Part shown: positions 1 through 53,650 of the stretch, piece by piece
Numbering within the stretch: position 1 is the first letter of the stretch
Layout: each line of letters starts with the position of its first letter
Assembly: GCA_021521415.1 (NCBI GenBank)
Contig: JAIQDT010000169.1
Coordinates: forward strand, 1 to 64,000
Source of the DNA: Bidens hawaiensis
Lineage: Eukaryota; Streptophyta; Magnoliopsida; Asterales; Asteraceae
Length of the DNA: 64,000 nt
Direction: 5' to 3'
Made by a program: the position numbers and the translations under genes
The notes under the pieces: model-generated
Databases searched by the model: none
The model's input: only the letters and a program-made list of their open reading frames with translations
What the model was told of the DNA's origin: nothing

Positions 1-1668
1 TGCCTTAAAAATCTGGAGACACTACCTGTACGGCACGAAGTGTGTCATCTATACCGACCACAAGAGCTTACAGCACATCCTCCATCAGAAAGAGTTGAAC
101 ATGAGGCAGCGACGCTGGGTCGAACTTCTCAGCGATTACGATTGTGAAATCCGCTACCACCCGGGAAAGGCTAATGTGGTGGCTGACGCATTGAGTCGTA
201 AAGAAAGGACCCAGCTGCACTCTATTCGAATTCAATCCAATCTTCCCTCCTTAATTCGCGAAGCTCAGAATCAGGCGCTTGTGAATGGAGATCTCAAGGG
301 CGTTTTGTCGTGTGGAGCCGAACAGAAATTCGAAACCAAGTTGGACGGCATCCTCTATTTTCTTGATCGAGCATGGATCCCAAACTCTGAGCCTCTTCGA
401 ACGCTTATTCTAAGTGAAGCCCACAAGTCCAGATACTCGATTCATCCCGGCAGCAGCAAAATGTATCAAGATCTTAAACCTCATTATTGGTGGCCCGGGA
501 TGAAGAAAGACATCGCTTTATACGTGATGAGATGTTTGACTTGTTCGCGAGTCAAGACAGAGCATCGAAGGCCGTCTGGGCTGCTTCAGCAACCTATTAT
601 TCCTCAGTGGAAGTGGGAAGAGTTAGCTATGGATTTCATCACCAAGCTACCGCGGACGCCTAGCGGTCATGACTCAATTTGGGTTATTGTGGACATTCTA
701 ACTAAATCCGCTCACTTTATCCCGGTTCGTGAGGACTACACTACGGAAAAGTTGGCGCGGATATACATTCGTGAGATCGTTTCCCGTCATGGTGTGCCTA
801 AGGGCATTACGTCTGATCGCGACAGCAGTTTTTCTTCCAGGTTCTGGAAATCTTTGCAAAAGGCCTTTGGGACAAGTGTGAAGCTTAGCTCTTCCTATCA
901 TCCAGAAACTGATGGGCAGAGCGAGAGGACCATACAAACCCTAGAGGACATGTTGAGAGCTTGTATCCTTGAATTCGGTAATAGTTGGGAAGCTCATCTG
1001 CCGCTGGCAGAATTTTCTTACAACAATAGTTACCACTCTTCTATTAAATGCGCGCCGTTTGAAGCTCTTTACGGTCGCAAGTGTCGCTCACCCTTGTGTT
1101 GGTCCGAGACCGGGGATTCACAGATCATCGGCCCGGAACTAATACAGGAAACAACCGATCAAATCGCTATCATTCAACAGCGACTCAAAGACGCCCGTTG
1201 TCGACATAAGTACTACGCAGACAAACGACGCAAGCCACTCGAGTTTCAAGTTGGTGACCGTGTTCTGCTGAAAGTTTCCCCCTGGAAGGGCGTAGTCCGT
1301 TTCGGGAAGAAGGAAAGTTCGCTCCTAGGTATGTTGGACCATTCAAAATCCTTGAAAGGATCGGACCAGTTGCCTATCGTCTTGAGCTGCCGCCGGAACT
1401 CGGTAGAGTTCACAATGTTTTTCATGTTTCGCAGTTAAAGAAGTGTCTTGTTGACGAGGCCCTTCTCATTCCCGTCGACGAGGTTCGAATTAACGACAAT
1501 CTGCTTTTTGTTGAAGAACCCGTCGAAATCTTGGATCGCGAGGTCAAGAAGACCAAGCGTAGCCGCATACCGCTTGTGAATGTTCGATGGAATAACAAAC
1601 GCGGACCCGAGTTTACATGGGAACGCGAAGATCAAATGAAGGAGAAATACCCTCATCTGTTCTCTTAG
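1..1668 (+). pseudogene. Gypsy pol 3' end: RNase H, integrase, chromodomain (frameshifted)
   Basis: The open frame runs in from the left edge (frame 2) with an RNase H end (YTDHKSLQH, then [18 protein letters not shown] and ADALSRKE). Integrase follows: a zinc-binding HHCC region (HKSR...[11 protein letters not shown], then CLTCSRVK) and a DDE core ([33 protein letters not shown]). The polyprotein ends with a chromodomain-like segment (about 1530-1668) whose conserved aromatic and acidic pattern EFTWERE is visible, and a stop at 1666-1668. One base appears to be missing near 1310, where frame 2 passes to frame 1, so an apparent stop at 1436-1438 is an artefact of that shift. Otherwise the reading is remarkably clean, suggesting a fairly recent copy. 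Confidence 0.85.
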
Positions 1669-2651
1669 TCTCTATTCTTGTAATCTATTGTCTAGAAGTC
1701 AATATAACATTTGCAGCATGTATCAAATAATTGTGTTATTCAATGAATATCGTGTTGCCTTATTATGCTTATAAGTATTCTTTTATTTGCATCCACAAAT
1801 TTGGCTACTCAGGGCTCATGCTGGGAGCACAAGTCATATCTACTCAATCATATGAATTTTGGGGAAATTTATACATTATTTAAGCCAAAAATTTGTCATT
1901 CATTCTTGCATTCATGGAGCATGGTTGTGTGTATGTGTGTGGTGTCGTGTCAAATTTTCTAGCCGCACACAATAGAGCTTATACATTGATACAAGGTGAG
2001 CTCGTAATTATAGTCCGGAATATAATTACATCAAGGTCACAGGTGTATACGTGTATAAGCAATATGCTATTGTGTAACTAGAAGTCGTGAACTCAAGGTT
2101 CGTGTAGAGAAATATTCGACAAAGGTTGAAGAAGTGGTGGGTTAGCCGCTGGTACACCCTATATATAAACCTCTTCGGCACGAGTTGAATATGTCTGAAG
2201 CGAAACCTGGAATTAGGGACTTATAGTTAGCGTGGCAGCTGTGAGACATTGAATTCAAGAATTACCGAGGGTAATATTCGCGGAAGATTGAAGGAGTGGT
2301 GGGTTAGCCGCTGGTACACCCTATATATAAACCCCTTCAATCCGAAATGAATATGTCTGATGTAAAGCTTGAGGATGATGCCTTGTAGTGGAAAATAGTG
2401 TGTCGTCCTGTGTGTCATTGATCTAATAGGAGTCGAAGGAAACACCCAAGTAAGGTTGAAGGAGTGGTGGGTTAGCCGCTGGTACACCCTATATATAAGC
2501 CCCTTCGGCTTGATTTGGGTGGTGCCTGAGACGAATATTAGAAGTGGTGGCGCATAGTGGTCATCATGGGATCATGTAATCTTAATCATCGATGCATCAA
2601 GTATACTAAAAAGCTAAATTTCGGGACGAAATTCCCCTAAGTTGGGGAGGA
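1669..2651 (+). repeat. Element A 3' non-coding region with three repeat units and polypurine tract
   Basis: No coding sequence is supported here. Three imperfect units spaced about 165 bp carry a strongly conserved core at about 2128-2179, 2286-2340 and 2455-2510. The core reads GGTGGGTTAGCCGCTGGT followed by ACACCCTATATATAA. It is flanked by self-complementary arms that differ between units. The region ends in a purine-rich stretch (2641-2651, GTTGGGGAGGA) directly before the LTR, the usual plus-strand primer site. Confidence 0.75.
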
Positions 2652-2850
2652 TGTAACGCCCTGGAATTTGACTGGTAGACAAAAATCAAGGAATCATCGG
2701 AAACTATACACTTTGGGGTTCTGGACGATAAGTTCGGAACCCATATCATTGGAGAAATCTGCTTTTATCATTTGAAATGTTTATTTTATAAAACGACATT
2801 TACGCCTGGAAAATATTAATTTTTATGCTTCTGAAAAATAAAATGTTCTT

Positions 2851-2854
<4 letters not shown>

Positions 2855-2883
<29 letters not shown>
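2855..2883 (+). repeat. Poly(A) tract in element A LTR
   Basis: A run of 29 A bases follows ATGTTCTTATTT. It may be a slipped homopolymer, or a relic of an inserted poly(A) tail. No target duplication is evident. Confidence 0.9.
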
Positions 2884-2885
<2 letters not shown>

Positions 2886-3439
2886 TTTTAAATAATTATT
2901 CGGAAAATGGTTTATAAAAGCTTTGCTGAAAAGTTTTAGTTTGTTTAAAAACTTATGAACTCGACTAGTCTTGACCCGTCGGTAGCCTAAACCCGAACCC
3001 GAGTCACCCGAGTATTTAAGCGGAAAATCAAGTATTCTTACACCATCTCTTTCATTTCCACCAACACTTCCCACCCCAAACACTCCCACTTCTAGAGAGA
3101 GAGTAGTGAGAGAAAGTCATCCAATCTAAGATTCGAGTCCACCAATCTGTTTATCGTTGTTGTCGGTAAGATCTTCTTGAAAATCATACGTTTTTACAAC
3201 CAAAACCCGCCCCGAATCGAGCAAAAACTCCGACTTTTGTGTCAAGTGTGTTCTTGGTCAAAAACCGTCATTTTTGGTGTCAAAATGCAAGCTTTTGTGT
3301 TTAAAAGTACTAGGAATCGATACCCCTTTCAATCCCGAGCATTTCCATGTCAAAAACTTCGATTTTGGGTCAAAAATCTGGAAAATCTGGAAAACCCGTG
3401 GGTATCTCCGTCGCCCAGCTTGAAGGAGTCGAATCAGAC

Positions 3440-3730
3440 TCATTCGATCGAACCAGTCGATCGAATCAGTCCAGTCGATCGAACCAGTCGATCGAATCAG
3501 TTCATTCGATCGAATGTGTCGATCGAACCAGTCCAGTCGACCGAATAGGAAAGCAACCGAATGGTCTCCAACTCATTCGACCGAATGAGCTTCGTATTCG
3601 ATCGAACGTCTGTCTATTCGATCGAATGAGTGTCTATTCGATCGAATGTGTTTCTATTCGATCGAATGTGTGTCTATTCGATCGAATGTGTTTCGATTCG
3701 ATCGAATGTGTTCCTATTCGATCGAATCAG
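3440..3730 (+). repeat. TCGATCGA palindrome array
   Basis: By eye there are 13 exact TCGATCGA words and two TCGACCGA variants. The last seven (about 3598 to 3718) are spaced exactly 20 bp apart in a tandem unit of the type GTCTATTCGATCGAATGTGT. The first group is more irregular, mixing CCAGTCGATCGAA and CATTCGATCGAA. Each word is an 8-bp palindrome, often extended to ATTCGATCGAAT. The array lies downstream of the probable TATA box, so it would be in the transcribed leader. Confidence 0.9.
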
Positions 3731-4283
3731 GTCAGAACCAAGCTGTTTCGTCTTTAAAACCTAGTTTTTGCTCGAGATCGTGTAAGGCTTACACTCTTAG
3801 ACTTAAACTGCGTTGTTAACTTATTATGTCCTTGTCTAGACTTAGAGGATCGACGTTTGACAGCACCCGACCGCCCTAGCAACCACACCTAGTCAACAAG
3901 GTGAGTTCATAGCCCCCATTTTTCTTTTAAAGCCTTTCAAATCATTGGGGGTGAAAACATGGTAAATGTACACGTTTTGACAAAACACATTTATTCAAAC
4001 ATTACTTATCATAAACACTTGACAAATCTTTTGCAAACAATGAACATTGGGAAAACAAGTAATCATGGCAGGTTACGCGTACCTTAACTTTCTCGGAAGT
4101 TGTGTATGCATAATCAAATATTCAGGAGTAAATATGGGAATCACTCAGCGTTTAGGGAACATTGGACGTTTGGAAATCAAAGTCATGTACCCGTTATACT
4201 TTATCATGAAAACACATTATTCATTGGTCAGTCTTGTGATCGTGTGAACAGTGGCAATATAGGTCACAATAGTGCATAGGTTT

Positions 4284-4523
4284 GATCTCCAAGTGGTCGA
4301 TTGGTAGACAGGCCGTCACTAGATGTGGAATTCTAAAGTGATCGATTTAGAATACACGTGACCTATGGGGTTCTTAAGTGTTCGATTAAGAATCCGAAGG
4401 ATCTCTTAAGTGTTCGATTAAGGATCCGAAGGATCTCCTAAGTGATCGATTAGGAATCCAAGAGATACTAAAGTACGCTTTAGAATTCTCTCATGGTACC
4501 CAAAGTGATCGATTTGGGTTACC
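4284..4523 (+). repeat. Tandem hairpin array with constant loop GTGNTCGA
   Basis: Seven consecutive inverted repeats occupy 240 bp. Loops read GTGGTCGA (4293-4300), GTGATCGA (4338-4345), GTGTTCGA (4378-4385), GTGTTCGA (4410-4417), GTGATCGA (4442-4449), a variant GTACGC (4473-4478) and GTGATCGA (4505-4512). Arms differ from one copy to the next yet remain complementary: CCAA/TTGG, ATTCTAAA/TTTAGAAT, GGTTCTTAA/TTAAGAATCC, GGATCTCTTAA/TTAAGGATCC, GGATCTCCTAA/TTAGGAATCC and GGTACCCAAA/TTTGGGTTACC. The last four carry a single-base bulge. The constant loop with compensating arms is directly visible; its role is unknown. Confidence 0.9.
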
Positions 4524-4747
4524 ATCAAGGAAATCAAGTAGCATAGTGTGGTCTTGTGTGGGGTCGATGTCAGGTCTTGTGTGATCATTATGCATCATTA
4601 TCATTTTTCATCATGGCATGGTTACATATGATTCTTGGGTATCTTATACATATATCCTTGATACCGTTCCTCCTGCATGCATGGAAACAATAATTGGAAT
4701 CTTTATACGAAACTCTTGCAGATTCAGTTGAGATGATAAGCATACCA

Positions 4748-4832
4748 AGCATAGTAGGATAAGTTGTAGGAGTGGTGGGTTAGCCGATGGTACACCCTAT
4801 ATATAAACCCCTACAACTTAGCCTAGTATGCT
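4748..4832 (+). repeat. Long hairpin with conserved TATA-like loop (fourth copy)
   Basis: Left arm 4748-4773 and right arm 4807-4832 are complementary over 26 positions with three mismatches. The 33-nt loop repeats the core found three times at 2128-2510 (GGTGGGTTAGCCGATGG and ACACCCTATATATA). The arm sequence (AAGTTGTAGG) differs from the internal copies (GATTGAAGG, GGTTGAAGA), but pairing is kept. Confidence 0.85.
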
Positions 4833-5192
4833 TGTGTAGGGCTTATCACTACAGTATTAGTTAACCTATGAATTCACTCATCTACTTTTTGTAGTTGACG
4901 TTTTATTACATGTTTTCAGGAAATGAAGCAGGAAGTAGCTAATAGCTGATAGAGGCCTTAGAGAGATGAAGGCTAGGCTAGGAGTTGTTTGGAAACTTGA
5001 TATTTTGTATTAAAACAATTTGTTTCATGTTACCTGGATGATGTAATATTTGACAGTTTGGTTATGTTTATGCATTTAGACTTTTATACTATTGTGCTCA
5101 ATCAATCACGACCTAGTCGCCACGCCTCGGTTTTCCGCCATTACGACCGGGGTGTGACACAAAATCCCAAAGCTGGTGCGTCGTCACCACAC

Positions 5193-6634
5193 TCAGTCTT
5201 CATCCTCTTCTTCTTCCTCCTCTGAACTCTGCTCATACGTCCGATACGGCTCTGCATTATCAAACTCTGGATCACCCGGTACGTAGATCGATGCCCTATT
5301 ACCATACCCTAAACCAACCGGGGCACTCGAACCACTTGGACCCGCAACATCCGGCTGTCGAAGATAATCAGGCAAAATGCTCAGCCTAGTCATCAAATGC
5401 CTCAACGTGTCATCCTGCCTCTGCTGATTTTCTTTCATAATCGGCCTCAAAAGCATCACATTGGTCAGTCATATATCCTCTCATCTAGTCAAACCCGGAC
5501 TCCATCCGGTCATACAACGACTCCATAGTAATCGTCTCGGGGCAAGGCTCTCTAATCGGAAACTGAATACCCTGTCTCTCAGACCTATGTAACGGCCTCT
5601 TGTGTCGTGTGGGCAAACCGGCTCTCATAGCCGCAGCAGCCTCAGTATCTGGCGGTGGATGAACTTGTGGACCCGCTTTAATATCCTCCCACGCTAACGG
5701 GTCACTAGTCTTCAAAATCCCCGCATTCCTCAAATCTTTTACTCCAACAAACTCTCTCGCAGGCCCCTTTCTCATATACTTTGTTTTAAACTTCAGTAAC
5801 ACACCTAAATTTCTAGAAATAACCGTGATATATGGGCCCATGTCAATCTTTGACCTTTGCTTTGTTCCGCCTTGTCTCACACGATGAAAAGACCATGCCA
5901 AAATACTAGCATAATTATCTGACACTTTTTCCACCATTGCCAACAAACAAATTATATCTTACCAATTCACCTTATTATCACCCGAACCCGACCAATAAGC
6001 GTGTTCACCAAAATCCGATGAATATTACGAAGCACCGGGTCTCGAGTATCTGAACTCACCATACTACCCGAAAACGAACAAATAGCAATTTTATTCCAAA
6101 ACCTAGCCAATTTCACCTTAGTAAACCTTACCGGTATTTCTTTTGAGAAAGCACCCGTATACTCGTCCTAAACACCGGCAATTGAACCTCCTCAACCGAG
6201 TAAAAACCACTCGCTACCCCCAAACTCCAATATAGTCATCTCATACGTCGTTCTACCAAGAGAAAACGAAATCGCATCTAGTTGATCACAATTACCGTCC
6301 TTGTATTGAAAAGTTTTGGACCCAGCAACTCTTCCACACACTCTCTTTGACCAATAGTATCCAACAAATTCCAATCGATAGTCTTGAAAGTGAGAAGATC
6401 CTAATTAACAAGATTATCCATCCGAATATATTCCGGTGAACCTTCCTCAAATTGAAGTAACGAACTATCGCGAAGATTTTGACTTTTTCTTCTCTTCTCG
6501 ATTGGCTCATCTTGATATTTAATATGATGATTTTTCAGCTTATCAAAAACCACCTCAGCCGGCACGCCTCGTGGCCGCGGAGCCGGACCTCTTTTTTGCT
6601 TTCCCCCTTCTTTCGACACGTCCATATCCGACAT
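5193..6634 (-). pseudogene. Athila-type 3' ORF (env-position ORF), broken
   Basis: The likely start is the ATG at 6634-6632 (MSDMDVSKEGGKQKRG), placed one base after an AG that fits a splice acceptor. Open segments are 6634-6401, 6374-6192, 5946-5485 and 5459-5193, joined only through frameshifts. Recognisable pieces include a basic proline-rich N-terminus, TIDWNLLD..., DNYASILAWSFHRVRQG, MGPYITVISRNLGVLL and a very acidic C-terminal tail (SSEEEEEEDED) ending at 5193. This resembles the Athila ORF found 3' of integrase, often called env-like although no envelope function is shown. I see no obvious signal peptide. Element A inserted just past the stop. Confidence 0.65.
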
Positions 6635-19024: not shown

Positions 19025-21025
19025 CATTATGAAAATTTCGAGTTCAAATTAATAACTTTCCAAAGTCTAAGGACCAAAAATGCCAAAGTTCCAAACCTTA
19101 GGGTTTAAAATAAATATTATGTTTTCTTGTCCTATCGCGTATCGCGAAGTGCTTGGTCAAAAGCTTCTGGAAAAAGTCAATAGCGATACGCTAACGCCGT
19201 TGAACCAACGTCATCGCGTATCTCGATGACGTGGCCTGATAGTTTGTGACACGTGTGCCACGTGGCAACCGGTGGCACTGTGTGTTGCCACGTGTCACCA
19301 CGTGGCAGTTGGACCGCCACGTGTCTCCACGTGGCACAACGCCTGCCACGTGTCGCCACGTGGCAGGTCTACGTGGTGACTCAGAAAGCCTACGTCGCGA
19401 TATGCGACGCGCTTGGCTAGGAGGCCATCGTGTACCGCGATGGGCTCCAAAATATGCTTATAAATAGAAGGCCATGGGTTCAAGCTCAACACACACCCAA
19501 CACAGCCCTCTCACATCTCTTTAACATCTCTCTAGAATATATAAACCATACCCTCGATCAACCTCGAAGTTCGTGCCATAATTCCTCGAAAAGCGTGCCC
19601 GATTCCTCATTTTCCATGTCAACGTTTCCTCAAAGTTCGTGCCACCCTCCATCCACATATCGACCAAGAAGGCGTTTGTTATTTTCTACACCATGGCGAT
19701 AAGTTTCGAAAGGCGTGCCGACCAGTGTTGAAGTTTGGTGTTGATCTTTTGGCGTGCCAAAGGAAGGAAAACAAGAAGAAAGGTTTAACGACAAGGAAAG
19801 AAAGGTGAAGCGGCGTTGGAGTGCTGCTCAAGTTATTAGGGTTTCTAAACGCCAACAAGGTAGGCGTAAAGCCAATGAATATAATAATAAAATATTATAA
19901 AAGGCTTAAACCTTAAGTCGAGGTTATACTCGATACCTTGATAAGAGAAAAGAAAACATAACAAAGAAAGAAACAAAAGATAAGAATATGAAAATCGATA
20001 AATATATATGTGTGTAAGTATATATTCTTTGTTATAAAAGTATTATTTAAGTAATAAATAACTATTCTTAAATAATAAAGAAAAAGAATACGTTTCTTAA
20101 AAAAGAAGAAACGTCAGGTTTTATAAATAAACTAAAGGTTTATAAATTACTTTTTAACAAAAGGTTTTAAAGTAAAAGAGATTTTGAACTAAAGGTTCAT
20201 CGAGGTAAAGTTTATAAAATAAGACTAAAGGTCTTAAGCCGGATTGTATATCCGACTAACAATTGGTTATAGCGAGATAGCAAGGGAAAGACCCTAGGAC
20301 GATGTTTGAAGCCGATCCCAAAGTGAAAAGGTGAATACGCCCCCAAACTTTTACAAACTTATTTTCAAACGAGTCAAACATGTTATATGAAAATTATTTA
20401 TAAGGAACTAAGTGTTCTTAAAACCGTTATAAATAAGAGTATAAGCCTAGCCCTCAGGCTGTAGTATATGTTTGTCTGGATCCATACATATGTGGTAGTA
20501 CGCGGTGGGCACATCGCTCCACACCTGGTAGAGGACGCTTTCCTGCGGGGAGCACGGCCATGTGTATACATACTGATACTTAACTAAGTCGAACGCTGCG
20601 GTTTTTGCTGAGGTAACCTAGTGTAGAGACTCGAGTTTATAAATGTGTTATTTTAACTTTGTTATTTCTAAGCCACGATGGGCCGAGGTAGGCGTAGTCT
20701 CGAGGGGTAATAAAGTAAAAGAAAATATTTTAGCGTTAGCGTATTCACCAACATTCATTGCTGACGTATTTTATTTACATTTTGCAGGTGAACAAGGATA
20801 GCGCTTGTTTTAAACTTAAATATAATATTAAAGATGGTTTTGTAAATCTTAAACAAGTAATACTAAGCGGGGAACTTTTATATCCCGTTTCTTTTGAATG
20901 TAAATATCTACAACTTTAATCCACATGTTTATAAGTCTTCCGCTAATTAAACGTAACTCTGATTTATTTACAAATATGGTACCAACATAGTTGTCATACA
21001 CCTAGGCCATGGTTTGGGTGTGACA
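19020..21025 (+). repeat. Element B 3' LTR (2006 bp)
   Basis: Starts TGTAACATTATG and ends GGTGTGACA, matching the 5' LTR over its full length with substitutions and at least two larger indels. Eight CACGTG at 19250-19362 and TATAAATA at 19459-19466 are kept. Confidence 0.93.
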
Positions 21026-51328: not shown

Positions 51329-51934
51329 TGTAGGTCCCCCCGGGGGCGTCGCCGATCGATACGAGATCCGCACGAGGTCTAAGAGTGCGGAATCCTCCTA
51401 GACTCGTTAATGGTGTACAAGATGAAGAACACAAACACGTACACGAACAAATACAAGAACGGGATAAACAAATCTGCAGATTCTTTATAATAATAATTAA
51501 ACAAACACGTTACATACCGTAACATAAACAGAAACACGTCCGACCCGAGGTGAGCTCTACCTCGGGTCGTCCCTAACGACACTCTCTCTCTGTTTGTTCT
51601 CTCTCGACACTCAAACTGTAACACACAACTCTCTGAATTACTGGATTCTTAACCTAAACAAGACACACGTATATATATATATATAAACTTCAGTAGGCGT
51701 CAGTAGGCGAAGTTGTTCATAACTTCGCCTATGGCGAAGTTGTGATAACTTCGCCTAAGGTGAAGTTGTCCTAACTTCGCCTAAGGCGAAGTTGTTCTAA
51801 CTTCACCTATGGCGTCTCCGCTGGTCTAAATTGCATAGCGACGGTCACAAAATGCACCAACAGTCTCCCCTTTGACCGTTGCTCTCAATTCTAACAAACA
51901 CAAAAGATCATCTGTTACAAAACATGCACCAACA
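51329..51934 (-). repeat. Element H 3' LTR (606 bp)
   Basis: Contains AACTTCGCC/GGCGAAGTT palindromes at 51700-51830 next to a TA-rich run (51668-51686). Confidence 0.9.
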
Positions 51935-53006: not shown

Positions 53007-53650
53007 TGAAGGTCCCCCCGAAGGCGTCGACGATCAATACGAGATCCGCACGAGGTCTAGGAGTGCGGAATCCTCCTAGACTCGTTAATGGTGTACAAGA
53101 TGAAGAACACAAACACGTACATGAACAAATACACGAACAAATACAAGAACGGGATAAACAAATCTGCAGATTCTTTATAATAATAATTAAACAAACACGT
53201 TACATACCGTAACATAAACAGAAACACGTCCGACCCGAGGTGAGCTCTACCTCGGGTCGTCCCTAACGACACTCTCTCTCTGTTTGTTCTCTCTCGACAC
53301 TCAAACTGTAACACACAACTCTCTGAATTACTGGATTCTTAACCTATACAAGACACACGTATATATATATATATAAACTTCAGTAGGCGTCAGTAGGCGA
53401 AGTTGTTCATAACTTCGCCTATGGCGAAGTTGTGATAACTTCGCCTAAGGTGAAGTTGTCCTAACTTCGCCATTGGCGAAGTTGTTCTAACTTCGCCTAA
53501 GGCGAAGTTGTTCTATCTTCACCTATGGCGTCTCCGCTGGTCTGAATTGCATAGCGACGGTCACAAAATGCACCAACAGTCTCCCCTTTGACCGTTGCTC
53601 TCAATTCTAACAAACACAAAAGATCATCTGTTACAAAACATGCACCAACA
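53007..53650 (-). repeat. Element H 5' LTR (644 bp)
   Basis: 38 bp longer than the other LTR: one extra 12-bp unit near 53120 and one extra palindromic unit of 26 bp near 53470. Confidence 0.9.

Follow-up and report, generated by a model that had tools for sequence, protein, structure and literature searches.

Plant long terminal repeats (LTRs) with many inverted-repeat copies upstream of the TATA box are known from Sireviruses, retrotransposons of the Ty1/copia superfamily. Their repeats, termed RM boxes, are constant palindromes that include the arms (for example, CACCGGACTGTCCGGTG), most of them with a CGG-CCG core (PMC2829016). A different kind of repetition is reported for gammaretroviruses, where two stem-loops of the genomic RNA, SL-C and SL-D, carry one 4-nt loop sequence (GACG) and participate in dimerization, with loop-loop contact reported (PMC5874298). 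Among LTR retrotransposons, two complementary hairpins of yeast Ty1 (Ty1/copia), SL1a and SL3a, have been proposed to start dimerization and packaging, with compensatory mutants described (PMC5454406). The plant LTR element BARE, also Ty1/copia, is described as having conserved dimerization and packaging signals (PMC3735527). Here we describe an array of hairpins in a Ty3 element, and so outside the superfamily of the RM boxes, that resembles each of these systems in part. As with the RM boxes, many inverted repeats are found in a plant LTR, and a conserved TATA-like sequence, a candidate TATA box, lies downstream of the array; here, however, it is the loop that stays constant, on arms of varying sequence. 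Compared with SL-C and SL-D, the loops are 8 nt long and there are six or seven predicted hairpins, in the LTR; compared with SL1a and SL3a, a single loop with a 4-nt self-complementary core is repeated. Packaging signals of the retroviral type consist of several stem-loops in the genomic RNA, whereas the hairpins described here are known from predicted folds. Among titles and abstract openings in the literature, mostly outside subscription journals, none described a plant LTR array in which the loop is constant and the stems change.

The array is located in a 64,000-nt stretch of Bidens hawaiensis DNA (the window; contig JAIQDT010000169.1, positions 1 to 64,000). Its host, element A, is represented in the window by the integrase, a chromodomain-like end, the 3' UTR, a polypurine tract and the LTR, in this order and on the + strand. 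The segment from integrase to the chromodomain-like end of pol (95–1668) was identified by profile matches: Integrase_H2C2, the zinc-binding part (1.3e-18), lies above the cut-off and rve (2e-6) below it; SH3_Tf2-1, the SH3-like domain of integrase, gives 8.3e-24; and Chromo at the end of pol (9e-4, 19.6 bits) lies below the Pfam cut-off of 25.1. A tract at 2639–2651, which we take to be the polypurine tract, precedes the 3' LTR of 2,508 bp (2652–5159; TGTAACGCCC...GGGGTGTGACA). Two other copies (L072 and L073) match the LTR over its full length with the same ends; their differences from the window fall mainly in a palindrome array at 3429–3727 and in a poly-A run, and the hairpin array differs by one base. 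A 401-bp query returned 951 first-look candidates in the host genome. The 40 that were scored were all 100% identical after rounding, and many of them are paired about 8.2 kb apart, representing the paired LTRs of other copies. Two other elements show 5-bp target duplications (CTGGA and ACTGT), and in one a primer site, TGGTATCAGAGCC, presumably of the tRNA-Met type, is present. The initial annotation had placed the array inside the LTR of a gypsy element, and this holds, with the LTR status established by the other copies rather than by the window alone. Judged by these matches, element A is a chromovirus-like Ty3/gypsy LTR retrotransposon of a young family, putatively of the Tekay lineage. 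The reading frame of pol changes near 1300 in the window copy, which is therefore probably not autonomous. The named entries among the best 120 of 7999 protein matches indicate that the host is probably a member of the Asteraceae. In the same set, one entry named as a Thermoplasmatota archaeon MAG protein (P0050) is 67% identical to the element integrase; this is probably plant DNA in an archaeal MAG.

Seven consecutive inverted repeats, six of them with a common 8-nt loop, had been noted at 4284–4523. Both the predicted fold and the motif count confirm this array on the + strand, and the folded hairpins extend slightly further on each side, from 4279 to 4525. All seven hairpins are present in the RNA minimum-energy fold of 4270–4540 (+ strand, −90.6 kcal/mol), which is more stable than each of 200 dinucleotide shuffles (mean −65.4; z −5.3, 0/200 as good). 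The same span folded as DNA gives z −6.2. In 120-nt windows the array (4290–4529) reaches z −2.2 to −3.6, less extreme than the neighboring array at 3570–3689 (z −6.8). Hairpin 1 (4279–4314) presents the loop GTGGTCGA at 4293–4300. The loop GTGATCGA is found in hairpin 2 (4323–4359, loop 4338–4345), hairpin 5 (4431–4459, loop 4442–4449) and hairpin 7 (4493–4525, loop 4505–4512), and GTGTTCGA in hairpin 3 (4368–4395, loop 4378–4385) and hairpin 4 (4399–4427, loop 4410–4417). Hairpin 6 (4461–4491) is the exception, with a UACG loop at 4474–4477. The common loop can be written GTGNTCGA, where N is A in three hairpins, T in two and G in one, and in all six it is closed by two A-T pairs. The longer motif AAGTGNTCGATT has exactly six matches in the 64-kb window, every one inside the array, and at the four further occurrences of GTGNTCGA a stem is minimal or absent (scores 0, 0, 1 and 3). 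Counting clusters of constant-loop hairpins with distinct 5-nt arms, the array contains four arms, and the best cluster in 60 dinucleotide shuffles of the whole window contained one (34 shuffles) or two (26 shuffles).

The stems differ between hairpins and are complementary within them. Among the six GTGNTCGA units, pairwise identity is 0.94 in the 12-nt loop block and only 0.42 and 0.50 in the left and right outer arms. When the right arms were permuted among the seven hairpins, the native arrangement (−77.7; mean −41.1) was the best of 5040, and this was likewise the case with the outer arms only. A cruder, ungapped count of pairs is weaker, with 14 of 5040 permutations as good as the native one, probably because several stems carry a bulge. 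In an alignment of the six units, 90.5% of the cells are paired and the covariation score is 0.552 (0.270 in shuffles), both values reached by 0 of 500 shuffles. Counted from the loop, pairs three and four switch between T-A, A-T and C-G with zero broken cells. On two further measures the same alignment does not go beyond the shuffles: the number of pairs changed on both sides (44/500 as high) and the number of pair types (241/500 as high). The stems had been called unrelated, which is an overstatement, as units 3–5 are related to one another as 32-bp tandem units, the other two resembling unit 3 at 97% and 78%.

We compared the array across the family. After 48 loci passed the unit count, three of another repeat type (L074, L091 and L092) were left out; the remaining 45, one of which is the window itself (L067), represent 44 distinct places, L085 and L108 being one and the same. 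They fall into two subfamilies, A1 and A2, the latter consisting of L085, L102, L106, L107 and L108–L137. The A1 loci and the A2 loci L108–L137 were drawn from the 40 that were scored among 951 and 949 first-look candidates, respectively, which partly selects for intact copies; L102, L106 and L107 were found by a pattern that needs two intact 12-mers, and L085 by the large hairpin described below rather than by the array. Six GTGNTCGA hairpins are present in 11 of 11 A1 loci; in A2 there are five in 30 of 34 loci and four in 4 of 34. Array length therefore varies, with seven hairpins in A1 and six in A2, which has one unit of about 32 nt fewer at the position of hairpin 4. A2 copies also have an extra A before the loop of hairpin 3, and they carry GTGGACGC between the arms of hairpin 6, where the window has the UACG loop. 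In L090, the one copy analyzed of a third lineage, A3, no GTGNTCGA hairpins were found. The corresponding part of that LTR (L090, 960–1360) contains other short inverted repeats, followed by ATGTAAG.

Between the subfamilies the array is better conserved than its surroundings. The LTRs of the window and of L106 (A2) are 83.6% identical (1923/2301), and the arrays 96.7% (202 of 209 aligned positions, plus the missing unit of about 32 nt). The flanks of the array are 91.1% and 87.6% identical (together 500/557). In this comparison with one A2 copy, the array has fewer differences than the flanks (7/209 versus 57/557, Fisher p 0.0018), and when the LTR is ranked in 217 overlapping 240-nt windows, the three most conserved (0.967 each) lie over the array, beginning at 4280, 4290 and 4300. 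In 32 of 32 other A2 loci (L102, L107 and L108–L137) array identity also exceeds flank identity, with means of 0.970 and 0.894. Alternatively, the raised conservation of the array could reflect recombination between the subfamilies.

Six positions in the array differ between the window and all 32 of these A2 loci. Positions 4285, 4329 and 4435 are unpaired, as is 4341, the N of loop 2; at 4499 a C-G pair becomes U-G and is retained; and 4423 lies inside the unit absent from A2. The five informative differences thus leave every pair intact. Since 161 of the 240 positions in the array are paired, a single informative difference on a paired site is fewer than expected (about 0.04, simple binomial). 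Position 4329 varies inside A1 as well, where L077, L093 and L095 carry the G of A2. Of the seven differences between the window and L106, one (4428) is private to L106 and one (4423) is in the missing unit. Differences confined to one or two of the 32 A2 loci occur at seven more positions of the array. At 4415, a loop base other than N differs in two A2 loci. Arm permutation in four of the 34 A2 loci (the arrays of L109 and L132 are identical) gave the native pairing as the best of 120 in each. Whole-array folding rearranges one or more hairpins in L118 and L136, two of the four A2 arrays folded, and in a set of eight folded arrays, L102 and L093 lose or rearrange a hairpin. The array is thus not confined to the copy in the window, and its arms have not drifted out of pairing. 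The initial annotation had looked to a family-wide alignment for arm covariation; this is present between the hairpins of one array and not between the subfamilies, because A1 and A2 have almost the same arms. With the array present in two subfamilies and its arms still pairing, a repeated hairpin across the family is well supported.

Element A contains a second, larger hairpin module on the + strand. In the LTR it occupies 4746–4834, within the region 4742–4836, with 28-nt arms and a 35-nt core (4772–4806) that ends in TATATATAA; this TATA-like segment sits in a bulge of the hairpin. Three more copies are in the 3' UTR, at 2104–2198 (core 2134–2168), 2266–2360 (core 2296–2330) and 2434–2528 (core 2464–2498), inside repeat units about 165 bp long with a similarity of about 77%. 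The core, GTGGTGGGTTAGCCGNTGGTACACCCTATATATAA, is invariant in all four except at N. The stems contain 17 to 24 Watson-Crick pairs, and their arms differ in sequence yet pair; the native arm pairing is the best of 24. Among the four copies, 14 of 29 pairs are changed on both sides and 95.7% of the cells are paired, with 0 of 500 shuffles as high on all five measures, the strongest covariation found in this analysis. The LTR copy is 97.9% identical (93/95) between the window and L106. We extended the comparison to eleven copies, including A2 and A3, chosen from 21 (4 in the window and 17 in L085–L090, L106 and L107); the 3' UTRs of L086, L088 and L089 were assigned to A2 by their similar divergence only, and two copies of L087 were left out. 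In these eleven, 93.7% of the cells are paired, two-sided cells number 54 (21.7 in shuffles) and covariation is 0.487 (0.207 in shuffles), each with 0 of 500 shuffles as high; the pairs changed on both sides were equaled in 6 of 500 shuffles and the pair types in 58 of 500. The core varies a little in A2 and other copies (TATACATAA, TGTATATAA). A search pattern for the large hairpin that excluded the main family led to six places, including L085 (A2) and L090 (A3). A promoter TATA would have no evident function in the three copies outside the LTR, and we therefore consider action in RNA the likelier for the large hairpin; in the LTR copy, the TATA-like letters may nevertheless work as a promoter.

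Which strand forms the selected molecule can be asked from the mismatches, as G.T and A.C are mirror images of each other on the two strands and were scored equally. The eleven hairpins of the window contain 13 G.T and 2 A.C (4:0 in the array and 9:2 in the large hairpins), an excess with a one-sided p of 0.004 that is inflated by shared descent. In ten large hairpins of A1, A2 and A3 the ratio is 13 to 6, weaker than in the four of the window; the A.C mismatches are in A1utr2 (two) and in two A3 hairpins (four), and one of them, at column 25 of A3ltrB, results from the pattern used in the search. The − strand of the array region folds as significantly as the + strand (z −5.6). Taken as a sequence signature, the G.T bias only moderately favors + strand RNA.

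Other palindromic arrays in the window follow the opposite design. In the same LTR as the hairpin array, 3429–3727 (+ strand) is a tandem array of constant palindromes of the ATTCGATCGAAT type (TCGATCGA). G-box (CACGTG) palindromes at 19286–19365 precede a TATA-like TTATAAATAG; they belong to a direct repeat, probably another LTR, whose partner is about 8.2 kb away. At 51706–51807 and 53396–53497, tandem palindromes of the form GGCGAAGTT-n-AACTTCGCC have nearly constant stems and variable loops. Arm identity in the G-box and GGCGAAGTT arrays is 0.93–1.00. These comparators are of a constant-stem, Sirevirus-like design, and the hairpin array is the reverse: in place of the constant unit of the Sirevirus repeats (PMC2829016), its outer arms are far less alike than its loop block. 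Elsewhere in the host genome, dispersed AAAGTAATCGA-type arrays with units of about 17–20 nt (L074–L076, L091, L092, L094, L096–L101 and L103–L105) are apparently unrelated to the hairpin array. Matches to patterns for divergent arrays that proved to be this repeat, 3 of 4 in one case and 12 of 17 in another, were set aside.

In Rfam, 1300–5300 gave three matches up to E 1, at 21–26 bits compared with gathering scores of 55–95, and none qualifies. A DNA pattern matched 65 stretches in viral contigs, only one of which (L029) has more than one AAGTGNTCGATT; a further pattern matched none. The L029 virus contig carries AATTAAGTGGTCGATTAAATT in a 225-bp repeat, and its match to the loop is probably due to chance. 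A DNA pattern search among genome contigs gave no match, and the element integrase gave one pattern match and no relative among viral contigs. Used as protein queries, open frames through the large hairpins gave 14 candidates, none at E 10, and those through the array gave no candidates. A reading of GNTCGANN as a tRNA T-loop or Pol III B-box was dropped on the reasoning that the stems form no T-arm.

We suggest that the array is a selected structured-RNA element of the Ty3/gypsy genomic RNA, with its loop read by Gag or a host protein, a proposal that we regard as evenly poised between right and wrong. We infer its action as RNA, its binding partner and its role in packaging or dimerization. 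LTR sequence passes through RNA in every replication cycle, and the array would therefore be carried by the genomic RNA unless it is spliced out, as six or seven short stem-loops in a row; it would lie at the 3' end if it belongs to U3 and in the 5' leader if it belongs to U5. The letters of the stems would be largely free as long as pairing holds, and the loop, 5'-GUGNUCGA-3', would be the part that is read. A loop-reading RNA-binding protein appears the likeliest partner given the constant loop, the paired changes in the stems, the tandem copies, the high conservation and the passage through RNA. The reader could be Gag, or the zinc knuckle within it, or else an RNA-binding protein of the host, Gag being the simplest candidate. 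The GACG loops of gammaretroviruses and the Ty1 hairpins offer precedents. Repeated hairpins would provide many binding sites on each RNA and so could mark it for packaging, and the self-complementary UCGA of each loop might additionally permit loop-loop contact between two RNAs.

Protein binding or packaging of the transcript was the role envisaged in the initial annotation; a role in the promoter region is a live alternative, which we keep open because the array lies upstream of a conserved TATA-like segment. The main rival to the RNA element is accordingly a cis-regulatory array acting at the DNA level, with AAGTGNTCGATT as a transcription-factor site repeated in U3, comparable to the repeated boxes of the Tnt1 LTR; we consider this possible and on the unlikely side. 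The array is about 270–520 bp upstream of the TATATATAA at 4798–4806, and the surrounding 4740–4919 is 97–98% identical between A1 and A2, whereas the other TATA-like site, near 3010, is in a 60-nt stretch with 53% identity. Palindromic repeats upstream of a TATA are likewise present in Sirevirus LTRs (PMC2829016) and in the G-box array elsewhere in the window. However, a double-stranded site has no need of arms that differ and still pair, and both the Sirevirus repeats (PMC2829016) and the comparators in the window keep their arms constant.

Selection on the structure need not be assumed if the array is a neutral by-product, in which strand switching during reverse transcription or repair generated quasi-palindromes and 32-bp tandem duplication multiplied them. 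Strand switching is known in general, units 3–5 are tandem relatives, and A1 and A2 differ by one unit. We nevertheless find this account improbable: a constant loop and raised conservation would not be expected from it, and the loop block is nearly uniform between units, the only clear difference in the GTGNTCGA loop common to 32 of 32 A2 loci is at N, and the windows over the array are the best conserved of the LTR. G.T pairs and bulges also persist rather than being corrected. We give similarly little credence to a host-side origin, in which the hairpins are small-RNA substrates that mark the element for silencing, as proposed for the palindromes of maize Sireviruses. Stems so short are poor substrates for Dicer-like enzymes, no Rfam family is found at gathering score, and silencing by itself would favor loss of the hairpins rather than preservation of their loops and stems. 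In its favor, palindrome-rich LTR regions of maize are small-RNA hotspots (PMC5311732, PMC10760457). A small-RNA or silencing role can coexist with the structured-RNA explanation, as a cost of it.

Returning to the structured-RNA element, the two modules might work together. The small GUGNUCGA hairpins and the large 35-nt-core hairpins with their UAUAUAUAA bulge, whose stems change mainly as pairs, would then form a multivalent genome-recognition code for packaging or dimerization of plant Ty3 RNA; this wider proposal is speculative, and we think it doubtful. To our knowledge, the signals by which plant Ty3 elements single out their RNA for packaging have hardly been mapped. The array offers a small, concrete and testable candidate: within a 2.5-kb LTR it overlaps the 240-nt windows of highest conservation, and a single genome holds hundreds of first-look candidate places for the family. 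The comparison also suggests two designs of palindrome array in LTRs, one with constant stems and one with constant loops; sequence suffices to distinguish them, and they may mark uses at the DNA level and at the RNA level, respectively.
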